38,309 nucleotides of DNA, from the NCBI GenBank assembly GCA_004565275.1, contig SDOX01000096.1:1-38309 (forward strand), written 5' to 3'. The position numbers and the translations under genes were made by a program. Positions 2,622 to 6,746 of this stretch are shown here, piece after piece. The notes beneath the pieces are model-generated. The model made no database searches, was not told the origin of the DNA, and saw nothing but the letters and a program-made list of their open reading frames with translations. Position 1 is the first letter of the stretch, and each line of letters opens with the position of its first letter. Origin of the DNA: Nannochloropsis salina CCMP1776. Its lineage: Eukaryota > Sar > Eustigmatophyceae > Eustigmatales > Monodopsidaceae.

Positions 2622-3140
2622 TCATTTTTTTCTTAAATAGGCCAAGAGAGATTTTTGACGTTTGTTGTGCGCTACGGTGTCTTCATCTTCTGTCTTACCT
2701 CCAATGCCTTTCAAAACTAATGTGCAATGGCTATCATACTTGGCGTAGGCCCGCTGCTTCTTGCCTTTCAATCCCTCTTCGCCCCCAACGGGACACTCGC
2801 CTCCGGCTATCCCCTTTCTCCCCCGTCCCTGCCCCTGCACCACCTTTTGATCTTCTGCCACCCACGAACCCTCCTGTCTTCTAGTCCCACACAATGTACA
2901 ATGTATGTCAATGTGCTGCTGCACGTATGTACAGGCTTTGCACGCCCATCCTCTCAACTCGGTGCCGGTCGTCGGCCTTTGTGATAGAGGCCCTCGCTCT
3001 CGGCGTTGCCAGGGGGAGACCCTAGGACCGCATGCAAGGGCTTCCGCCTCATCGGCACTTCCATAAGTCACTGTCCCTTTCACCTCCTCTTTCTCGCCCT
3101 CACCCTCGACGTCCACGACACTCCCCCCCCCCTCCCCTCT
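2622..3140 (-). CDS. RanBP2/NZF-type zinc finger and C-terminal PCNA-box-like exon, probably the 3' end of the SNM1 gene
   Basis: This frame runs open from about 3140 to a stop at 2622-2624. It holds one four-cysteine finger, GWACKACTYVQQ followed by CTLCGTRR. That is the W-x-C-x2-C...C-x2-C pattern of RanBP2/NZF fingers, with the Thr-Tyr pair at the place where ubiquitin-binding NZF fingers carry Thr-Phe. The protein ends in KRQKSLLAYLRKK, which resembles a PCNA-interacting box (Gln, hydrophobic at +3, aromatic at +6) next to basic residues. Between 3340 and 3080 a second minus-strand frame encodes an acidic stretch and then VVVLVEP, like a SUMO-interacting motif. The SNM1 nuclease ends immediately upstream on the same strand, with no room for a promoter. 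The frames are separated by a 10-C run (3123-3132) and a possible donor near 3097. I infer one gene. A separate zinc-finger gene is the alternative. Confidence 0.6.
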   Translation of the reverse strand, partial: RGEGGGSVVDVEGEGEKEEVKGTVTYGSADEAEALACGPRVSPWQRRERGPLSQRPTTGTELRGWACKACTYVQQHIDIHCTLCGTRRQEGSWVAEDQKVVQGQGRGRKGIAGGECPVGGEEGLKGKKQRAYAKYDSHCTLVLKGIGGKTEDEDTVAHNKRQKSLLAYLRKK

Positions 3141-3261
3141 TCACCCTTCCCGCTTCCGCCTCTCTCTTGACCGCTCTCTCCTTCCCTCATCCCAGCACCC
3201 TCCCTCCCACTGGGCTCCACCAGTACCACAACCTCCTGCTCCTCGTCTTTCTCCTCCTCCT

Positions 3262-5032
3262 CTACCAAAGAGCAGCCCGCCGCGTCCCTCTCTGCGTCCG
3301 CCCCCCCCTTGCTCTGCCCGCTCTCCCCTGGTCCCGACGGCCCTTCCCTCCCTCCCTCCCTCCCTCCTTCCTTCCCTCCTTCCCTCCCTCCTTCCCTCCC
3401 TCCTTCCCTCCCTCCCTCCCTCCCTCCTTCCCTCCCCCCTTCCCTCCCCCCTTCCTCCCCCCCGGCTTCCCGAACAAGGAGAGAAATGCTCTCTTCCCCT
3501 CCGCGTCGTCCAGCACCCCTCGAAAGCGTCGGAGGATCCTGTCCTTCTCCTTCGCGTCGCTCCACACCGTGGGCACAACCCGCCTCGGTCGCAAATACCC
3601 GACAAAGTCCAATAAGTCCGCGAAGGGCGTGTGTTCGCTGTACGGTATCAGCTGCACCTTGATTCTCGCCTCCCCCCCTCCCTCTTTCCCTCCATCCTCC
3701 GACCCCCCCCCCCCTTTCTCCCGCACAGCGTTACGCCGGTTGAAGTTGCTGCCTTCCGCCCACCCTGTAGGGATGAAGGCGTAGACACGTGTGTAGCCCC
3801 CTCCCTCCCTCGCTTCCTCCTCCAATTTCTTCTCCAAATTGGAGAAATTGGGTTTGAAAAAGGGCCACATCTCCCCGCAAAATCCCATGCGGCAGACGTG
3901 GAGACAGGTCTCCGTCTTGTCCGTGGTGAAGGGGGAGGGCGGGAGGGAGGAAGGGGGGGAGGGCGGGCGGGAGGGGGGCAGATCCAAGCAATCCAGTATC
4001 TTCATCTTCGCCTCGTCGACATAGATGGGAAGGCGGGTGCGGCGAGCGACATCCAGGAGCAGACGCTCCTTGCCGATGCTGTAGGCGCTGAGGAGGAAGA
4101 GGGTCTTGGGGCGAGGGGAAGGGGCGGACGGGGGAGGGAGGAAGGGAGGGCGAGGGGGAGGGAGAGAGGACGTGGTGGAAGAAGGAGAAGATTGCCTGGC
4201 TAGGGTCCCTCCCTTTGGGTTGTTCGAGGTCGTGGCTGTGGTGGGAGGGTCGCCGGGTGCGACCTCTCTCCCTTCCTTCCTCAGGCGGGCCAAGATCAAG
4301 TCTCCCACGCTCTGGATCGCATCCTCCTGAGCAGCAAAGGCGTGTTTGGGGTGCGCATAGGTTGTGTCCAGGTAGATCGTGTCGAGCTTGCGAGGACGGG
4401 GCGGTCGCGGAGGATGGGAGGCGGTGGTGTCGTGCAGGAGGGCGGCGTAGTGCAGCATTCTGGGGTGGTAGCGCATGTCCCCACAGTGCAAATGAAGCGT
4501 AAATTCGTCGTCCCTCTCCCTCCCACTGACCTCCGCTCCATGGCCGTCGCCACCGTTGCACCCCGTGGTGCTTCCTGGGCATGTCCGGACCCTGAAGAGC
4601 AACATGCAGGCCCCCGGGCAATGATTAGCGTCGAGCAACGTCACGCTCAAACCTCCCTCCTCGCGTCCGCCCCTCCCCGGATTCCGTGGCAGAGGCACCT
4701 CTTCATGCATGGGCAAGGCGCGCACGTATTGAGCCTGCACACCCATGATATTTGTCAAAAGACGGGCTGTGATGGTTGAGCAATATATCACACCCGTGGA
4801 CCACTCCATACTCAGCCCTTGATAGTGATCTGCGTGGTAATGGGAGAGGAAAAACAGGGCTTGGGCACGGCTTCCGACGGCGGGGCAGTGATACTTGCGG
4901 AAGGCATCGACGAGGACGGGCGTATCAGGAACCTGCGGGCAAGATCATGGATGAATCTGAGGGTGAGAAAGGGAAGGGAGGGGGAGCGAGCAGTCGGATA
5001 CTGACCTGGTGGACGGAATTATCCTTGTTCAT
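3262..5032 (-). CDS. SNM1: DNA cross-link repair nuclease of the SNM1A/PSO2 (DCLRE1A) family
   Basis: A metallo-beta-lactamase/beta-CASP 5' exonuclease, a family that trims DNA at interstrand cross-links in the nucleus. Exon 1 is 5032-5006 (MNKDNSVHQ, ATG in the context GCCACCATG). A short GT-AG intron joins it in frame to the exon starting at 4932. The metal motif is HYHADHYQG about 45 residues from the N-terminus. It is followed by LLDANHCPGACMLLF, HCGDMRYHPRM, LDTIYLDTTYAHPKHAF, LLSAYSIGKERLLL, a GFCGEMWPFFKPNF block, FIPTGWAEGSNF, LIPYSEHTPFADLLDF and VVPTV. These cover both the nuclease and DRMBL regions. The frame ends at 3262 after a long Gly/Lys/Glu/Arg repeat encoded by TCCC repeats. 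Convincing protein sequence resumes in another frame next to a 7-C run at 3457-3463, so the true C-terminus probably lies downstream. Unlike animal SNM1A, the nuclease domain starts almost at the N-terminus. Confidence 0.9.
3342..3470. repeat. CCTCCCTCCTTCC low-complexity tract
   Basis: About 130 bases of CCCTCCCT/CCTT repeats ending in C-rich blocks and a 7-C run. It lies at the 3' end of the SNM1 nuclease frame, where minus-strand frames read Gly-Arg-Glu-Gly or Gly-Lys-Glu-Gly repeats. It contains no splice donor that I could find, so it may be translated, unlike the similar repeats inside introns of other genes here. Copy-number error in assembly is likely in such a tract. Confidence 0.8.
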
Positions 5033-5783: not shown

Positions 5784-6746
5784 CTACGTGAAGCCAATCA
5801 CCAAGAGCAGGACTAAGATGATCAGCAAAATAGCGATGCAAATGTACAAACGACATACCGTGCTTTGCTCGCGTATCCGCTGGGCATGTCGAGCTTCCAT
5901 GCGCAAAGACGAAGCCGCCGCCTCCACGTCCCCGTCGATGTCTTCCAACAGCTTGTGGTGGATCCCAGTTTCGTCCCGGATCACCAGGCCCTGCATTTTC
6001 AGCCGGTCCACGCCCTTCCCCAGGTCCTCCAGGAGCTCGTCTTGCTCGTGGATGATCTCTCGACGTTGCTGTGCGAGGGTACGGAGGCCTCCGGGTACTC
6101 CTCCACCGCCCGAAGCCGCCGAGCCGTCGCGAGTAGTCCCTGTGGCCAGGCCGTTGGTGCCGTGGCTGCTGGTGCCAAGGAGGGACAGCTGATGACGCAG
6201 CCCCTTGACCAGCTCTCGACGACGGACCACGTCCGATTGGGAGCTAGGAGGGGGGACGGGAGGAAAGCAGAGAGGGGTGAGGGTAGGAGGGAAGGAGGAA
6301 AAGGGAGCGAAGAGGGGAGGGAGAGTAGGAGAGACAAAAAGAAGGATGTCAAGAGAACTGTGCATCCGCCGACCACAACAAATCGACACACCCTGCCCAT
6401 GTCTGTTATTGCCTCGCGGATACGTTTCAATGGCTTTCATATGGGAGCATAGCTTGAAATCCATCGGTACAATATCGGTGTGATAAATATCAAAATGGAC
6501 TCTCTCCCTCTCTCTGTGGGCCTCGCTTCTACTTTGTCGCACTCACATGCCGAATTGCCCAGGATTTTGCTCCATGGTCCCCAATCGATAGTCCAGCTTG
6601 TCGACGGTCTGCTCTAGGTTAGCCAATTGTTGCGTCGATGGATTGGAAGAAGAGGACGAAGGGGTTGCGAACGAGGCGCGTAGATCTATTGCAGAAGTCT
6701 TCACCCGGCCATATTCCTCCGTCCACTCCTGCGCCGTAAACGCCAT
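5784..6746 (-). CDS. Qc-SNARE, syntaxin-8/SYP7-like, tail-anchored
   Basis: SNAREs drive membrane fusion by zippering into a four-helix bundle; Qc proteins give one helix, usually at endosomal or secretory membranes. Exons: 6746-6547 and 6243-5784, joined GT-AG in frame, giving 219 residues, close to syntaxin 8. The start at MAFTAQEWTEEY is the first ATG of the frame and is also where the family begins. An N-terminal helical region with ISQSDVVRRRELVKGLRHQL is followed by a Gly/Ser/Thr-rich linker. The SNARE motif begins EIIHEQDELLEDLGKGVD and continues IRDETGIHHKLLEDIDGD. A single C-terminal membrane helix, ICIAILLIILVLLLVIGFT, ends the protein. Ungapped alignment from memory with syntaxin 8 puts the first His of the HHK triplet at the ionic zero layer, where Qc-SNAREs have Gln. 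The gene is head-to-head with the SOD gene, 442 bp apart. Confidence 0.9.

Follow-up and report, generated by a model that had tools for sequence, protein, structure and literature searches.

Our best explanation of the locus described here is a single gene for a member of the SNM1 family outside SNM1A, whose putative product would combine an N-terminal nuclease, an acidic linker, an NZF finger and a PIP-like end and would be recruited to ubiquitinated PCNA, and to this reading as a whole we give a confidence just short of even. All features of the locus lie on the minus strand of the window, by which we denote the whole analysed stretch of 38,309 nt of contig SDOX01000096.1. That nuclease, acidic linker, finger and PIP-like end belong to one gene is, judged from the sequence, the likeliest reading, albeit unproven; the domain combination is of moderate interest, and it sits in a probably frame-broken gene.

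Exon 1 (5032-5006) encodes the nine residues MNKDNSVHQ and ends at the donor CAG/GTCAGT, from which a 73-base intron (5005-4933, GTCAGT..CCGCAG; donor at the 57th and acceptor at the 54th percentile of the trained sites) leads into frame A, open from 4932 to a TAG stop read at 3264-3262. The start Met was also the one chosen by the gene model, and since an in-frame TGA lies upstream of it with 12 nt between, the short N-terminus is likely genuine. The SNM1-family MBL/beta-CASP nuclease occupies 4932-3466 and contains low-complexity inserts, one of them of 53 codons (4263-4105, minus strand), which the gene model takes as an in-frame intron. Its metal-binding motif HYHADH (4842-4825) was located by alignment to the human proteins, and the motifs HYHADHY, LLDANHCPGA, CGDMRY and IPYSEH align to human SNM1A or Apollo. 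The Pfam DRMBL match reached 61.2 bits (cut-off 22), and the comparison with the human SNM1A structure gave an E value of 1.3e-34, SNM1A being the best single-sequence match. By these matches the protein belongs to the SNM1/PSO2 family, with MBL and beta-CASP (DRMBL) parts and intact metal motifs, and by family it is predicted to be a 5'-exonuclease. The position of this domain directly after the nine-residue exon bears out the claim of the earlier note that the nuclease begins close to the N-terminus. Searching the genome with the nuclease returned 17 rows, two in the window locus and 15 elsewhere, the latter confined to residues 431-558 of the query, largely its low-complexity end; an exon by exon DRMBL search, which gives a lower bound, found at least two places. 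On either side of the locus, also on the minus strand, lie the probable start of an acetyl-CoA-carboxylase-like gene (1415-1612; Biotin_carb_N 23.6 bits, under the cut-off of 25.5) and a probable SNARE with a C-terminal membrane anchor (5784-6243; PF05739 19.4 bits, under the cut-off of 26.8).

Behind the nuclease, a GGGA repeat detected by a tandem repeat scan (3463-3342) encodes a Gly/Arg/Glu-rich linker that is open in frames A and B. Frame B (3730-3080, with a single ATG at 3190) carries the acidic stretch with VVVLVEP, EEEEKDEEQEVVVLVEP (3262-3212), and frame C (3140-2622, 172 codons, without any ATG) carries the NZF-like finger WACKACTYVQQHIDIHCTLC (2948-2889) and the terminal QKSLLAYL (2657-2634), followed by RKK and a stop at 2624-2622. 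The modules that the earlier note had placed after the nuclease, from the acidic stretch and VVVLVEP through the finger to QKSLLAYLRKK-stop (2657-2622), are accordingly all present as letters, but they are distributed over the three frames A, B and C instead of lying in one. Two homopolymers are possible slip sites, a G8 run (3308-3301), around which the coding signal changes from frame A to frame B, and a G10 run (3132-3123) for the change from B to C, which is confined to the interval bounded by a stop in frame C (3143-3141) and one in frame B (3082-3080). The path from A through B to C would result if each of the two G runs had been undercalled by one base, or if one 4-base repeat unit had been lost. 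The tail DNA is single-copy, with one match (itself) in a search of the 26.5 Mb genome.

The coding statistic follows this same path: over 3264-3145 it was 16.0 for frame B, 2.5 for A and −0.8 for C, and over 3144-3083 it was 5.8 for C, 0.6 for B and −0.3 for A. Across 3261-2622, a path without stops gained 25.8 log units when two frame switches were allowed at will, a value reached by none of 187 intergenic windows of the same length (half-overlapping, both strands; maximum 0.94), of which just 20 allowed any stop-free path, and none of 34 3' flanks matched the tail's coding gain, a stop-free crossing being possible in two and positive in neither; the same gene model had served to define both reference sets, and high-scoring windows had thereby been taken out of them beforehand. 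Left free, the switches settled at 3327 and 3136 (gain 33.0), near the G8 and G10 runs and not inside them, and slips at the runs gave 27.8, with slip limits (3300-3307 and 3121-3130) one and two bases off the actual runs. Frame C alone scored 7.1 over 170 codons, against −35.2 to −3.0 for nine intergenic open frames of equal length.

These values bear on the reading in which the nuclease gene stops at 3262, or is spliced so as to stop directly ahead of the finger, and the finger frame, outside its product, is the remnant of a pseudogene, a small gene unrelated to it or a product of chance; we regard this as unlikely but a serious contender. It draws on the weak codon signal towards the end of frame C (0.8 over its final 112 codons, under all 87 coding references and equalled or exceeded by 4 of 60 non-coding open frames; −8.0 over the finger stretch 3000-2881), on a finger below the Pfam cut-off, and on a gene-model optimum that stops before the finger. 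Against it stand the missing ATG in frame C, the coding signal behind the nuclease, unmatched in the intergenic windows and 3' flanks, and the improbability that chance alone gave one short frame both a PIP-like end and the exact spacing of an NZF. The claim that nuclease and tail form one gene has the coding signal and the ATG-less final frame on its side, but has to accommodate the frame breaks and the optimum that omits the finger.

The two-strand gene model behind that optimum was trained on 19 of 20 stretches (L026-L045) and on window positions 6501-38309, together 92 genes with 133 introns; L036, in which 8050 of 10000 bases are N, was excluded from the model and from the terminal-PIP count and included in the finger spacing scan and the profile search. 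Applied to the C18 paralogue, it recovered a multi-exon SNM1A except for the first exons and one junction residue. At the window locus, the best solution scored −5277.9 without constraints and −5279.6 when the nuclease core had to be included, each of them ending in another frame directly ahead of the finger; then came the end at 3262 (−5284.6) and the spliced fusions that reach the finger through one intron (−5287.9) or two (−5289.5), so that the 3262 end leads these fusions by 3.3 and 4.9 log units. Because the unconstrained optimum splices out part of the nuclease, from IPYSEH onward, it is not trustworthy as a whole.

The same scores speak to a rather improbable alternative in which the frame breaks are real, with no assembly error, and one gene is restored by splicing, either through an intron at 3265-3022 from A to C, which would skip the acidic and SIM-like stretch, or through two introns via B. 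Both joins are in phase, both models lie less than 5 log units from the 3262 end, and the tail donors are fair, those at 3103 and 3083 being average. The acceptors, on the other hand, are poor: the best one ahead of the finger lies only at the 10th percentile, as seen in the alternative 62-base intron from B to C (3083-3022; donor at the 46th percentile) that forms part of one spliced-fusion model, and the sense strand is purine-rich where the acceptors of this genome, according to the training set, are C/T-rich. Splicing to the finger is possible in the gene model and not favoured, and in the single-gene reading that we prefer the two frame breaks would be one-base undercalls or repeat slippage in the contig, removal by splicing being the less likely route.

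The finger has the exact spacing W-x-C-x2-C-x10-C-x2-C, and the pattern W.C..C.{10}C..C occurred twice in the window and the 20 stretches L026-L045, here and in the known RanBP finger of L034. A test against NZF/RanBP2 models, as proposed in the earlier note, gave a divided answer: Pfam zf-RanBP (PF00641) yielded 7.5 bits against a cut-off of 27, and the finger is absent from the 16 genome-wide zf-RanBP matches, but a profile built from 12 fingers of the same genome placed it second among 5397 six-frame peptides (E 1.9e-4; next 0.15). As the Pfam cut-off was not reached, we hold the claim to "NZF-like". DUF5816 matched with 18 bits, below its cut-off of 26.9, and the PDB matches were weak (TRABID E 0.035, NPL4 E 0.076). 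TRABID NZF1 contacts ubiquitin through a Thr, a Tyr and a hydrophobic residue that precedes its final Cys (excerpts of PMC4386640), and the window finger has T, Y and L at the positions aligned to the ubiquitin contacts of TRABID and NPL4. It carries Gln in place of the usual Asn two residues after F/Y; in ZRANB3 this Asn is N634, and N634A abolishes ubiquitin binding (excerpts of PMC12841045). The reading as an NZF of the ubiquitin-binding kind is supported by the spacing and the T-Y and L contacts, and weakened by the failed Pfam cut-off and the Gln. Identity with UBZ4 was considered and fits poorly, since nine residues separate the second Cys from the His here and 13 in the human SNM1A UBZ (available part of PMC11199599), whereas the four-Cys NZF spacing is exact. 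For a 60-residue segment containing the finger, single-sequence AlphaFold predicted a helix and not an NZF (mean pLDDT 66.4; 42-57 in the other four models), a prediction that says little without an alignment but lends the finger no support.

The C-terminus QKSLLAYLRKK fits Q-x-x-h-x-x-a, with Leu in position 8 and the final aromatic missing, whereas the canonical PIP reads Q-x-x-[ILMV]-x-x-[FY]-[FY] (excerpts of PMC6116012 and PMC12841045). With Q, L and Y present, the motif is at best a non-canonical PIP, and what had been described as a PCNA box survives as a PIP-like terminal QKSLLAYL that departs from the consensus at position 8. A relaxed PIP within the last 15 residues was found in 2 of 761 six-frame open frames of at least 100 aa, the window frame among them. 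As for the SUMO-motif-like element, VVVLV does follow an acidic run in frame B; the case for it is weak, as it depends on translation of that frame, and the SIM regex did not flag it. As to the genomic counterparts of such motifs, Rad60-SLD matches of equal or near-equal score at C15:914482-915132 (spacing 228 bases, i.e. 76 codons), C55:1197755 and C52:744813 resemble ubiquitin or polyubiquitin more than SUMO, and C72:595511 is the likelier SUMO gene. One PCNA gene was located in the genome, with the Lys aligned to yeast Lys164 kept, and an XPG-family gene (L049, C72:590354-591100) carries the canonical PIP QSRLDSYF; together, this PIP and the single Lys164-keeping PCNA support our best explanation.

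Regarding the identity of the nuclease, the gene on C18 matched human SNM1A with 239 bits and Apollo with 117, and the window gene matched them with 124 and 86 bits, respectively, the low-complexity insert having been omitted from the C18 query and retained in the window query. A quartet on 271 gap-free columns was best resolved as window with Apollo and C18 with SNM1A (bp-RELL 0.978), and the other two arrangements, window with human SNM1A or with C18, received p-AU 0.0174-0.0176 and p-SH 0.0325. When four Bacteroidales rows were added as outgroup, placement of the window nuclease inside the SNM1A clade received p-AU 0.015 and p-SH 0.064, and a position as Apollo sister, as sister of the SNM1A clade or on a deeper branch were all compatible; these trees have few taxa and long branches, and the outgroup rows are distant bacterial sequences, one of them (L054) shortened by its reading frame. 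The rows derive from 406 pattern matches in GTDB genomes, which came down to four distant Bacteroidales MBL proteins that serve only as outgroup; those of the Bacteroidales MAGs (L053-L056) show HYHADHY and are distant relatives of the nuclease's N-terminal part. Among viral contigs, 19 stretches matched one pattern and no relative was confirmed.

SNM1A orthology was rejected by the AU tests in the quartet and the outgroup tree, though not by SH in the latter (0.064), and a better SNM1A lies on C18. The reading of the earlier note, an SNM1A orthologue whose UBZ and PIP were replaced by a C-terminal NZF and PIP, can still point to SNM1A as the top single-sequence match but is very improbable, as both the four-taxon and the outgroup trees point outside the SNM1A clade. 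We accordingly abandon the label "SNM1A-type", with C18 closer to SNM1A and a p-AU of about 0.02 against a joint placement. The proposed relocation of motifs into the opposite order does not hold either: with the nuclease first and the tail last, the protein is arranged like SNM1B/Apollo, so that no "moved" motif has to be assumed, and the gene model indeed puts the catalytic domain at the N-terminus, as this arrangement requires. A long N-terminal region that could hold UBZ4, PBZ and PIP as in SNM1A is missing, exon 1 contributing its nine residues only. A regex search of the three minus-strand frames over 5500-2600 found no UBZ4-like or PIP-like motif upstream of the nuclease, the sole UBZ4-like match being the NZF-like finger itself. 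A dinoflagellate survey, in the part available, gives SNM1 and SNM1B as separate entries (PMC6680887).

The best quartet would also suit an ordinary orthologue of SNM1B/Apollo with a tail that no longer functions in binding, the Asn-less finger and the PIP without its last aromatic being relics, and the exchanges of Asn for Gln and Phe/Tyr for Leu at key places point the same way. We nevertheless find this doubtful, since the four Cys, the Trp, the T-Y pair and the terminal Q..L..Y are retained and, with the outgroup, the Apollo sister position is only one of three compatible placements. The C18 SNM1A orthologue has features of its own: it ends in KTVEVIVLDDDDN-stop, which is SIM-like (L025 2245-2286 = C18:85814-85855), has a PIP-like DKSRLDRYLG without Gln right behind the nuclease (L025 1981-2010 = C18:85550-85579), and gives one UBZ4-like regex match in three forward frames, within a predicted intron. 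A speculative extension, unlikely though worth stating, is that the two SNM1 nucleases exchanged addresses: the C18 SNM1A, with no credible UBZ in the scanned frames, ends in the SIM-like VIVLDDDDN, and the second nuclease, outside the SNM1A clade, would independently have gained a C-terminal NZF and PIP serving ubiquitinated PCNA.

In the mechanism that we propose for the single-gene nuclease, the PIP-like end would dock on PCNA and the NZF would bind the ubiquitin attached to Lys164 of PCNA, K63 chains being the most plausible form by analogy with ZRANB3, and this dual binding would bring the nuclease to stalled or crosslinked forks. Given the substitutions at two key positions, Gln in the finger and Leu in the PIP, binding may be weak or lost. 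In animal SNM1A, PCNA- and ubiquitin-binding modules steer the nuclease to damage; if the present reading is true, equivalent but unrelated modules sit on another family member in a distant lineage, which would mean that such a dual address arose on more than one occasion, and a single small genome would offer its two nucleases for direct comparison. Should the tail be a frame-broken exon, it would exemplify how undercalled G runs hide domains from annotation.

No SNM1-NZF fusion was described in the literature searched, which was mostly without subscription papers, nor did this literature contain an SNM1 paper on Nannochloropsis; in the available excerpts, SNM1A and the NZF of ZRANB3 are treated as separate proteins (PMC6213728, PMC6116012). 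Among known systems, SNM1A (DCLRE1A) shares the nuclease family with the window protein and gives the highest single-sequence score, and its logic of PCNA and ubiquitin binding, in which PIP and UBZ of the human protein act jointly (excerpts of PMC7607226 and PMC11199599), is the one proposed here from sequence. It differs in that UBZ4, PBZ and PIP are N-terminal there, whereas the NZF-like finger and PIP-like end are C-terminal here. SNM1B/Apollo (DCLRE1B) has the matching layout of an N-terminal MBL/beta-CASP nuclease followed by a tail (excerpt of PMC7607226) and is the best quartet neighbour, although the placement beside it is just one of several once the outgroup is added. For the finger, TRABID NZF1 and the NPL4 NZF share its spacing and ubiquitin-contact residues, with a weak sequence match. 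ZRANB3, whose PIP and NZF act jointly on K63-polyubiquitinated PCNA (excerpts of PMC6213728 and PMC12841045), resembles the window protein in pairing these two modules and in the T-Y of the finger; it differs in being an SNF2 translocase with an HNH nuclease, in placing the PIP before the NZF with an APIM at the end, and in having Asn634 where the window finger has Gln.
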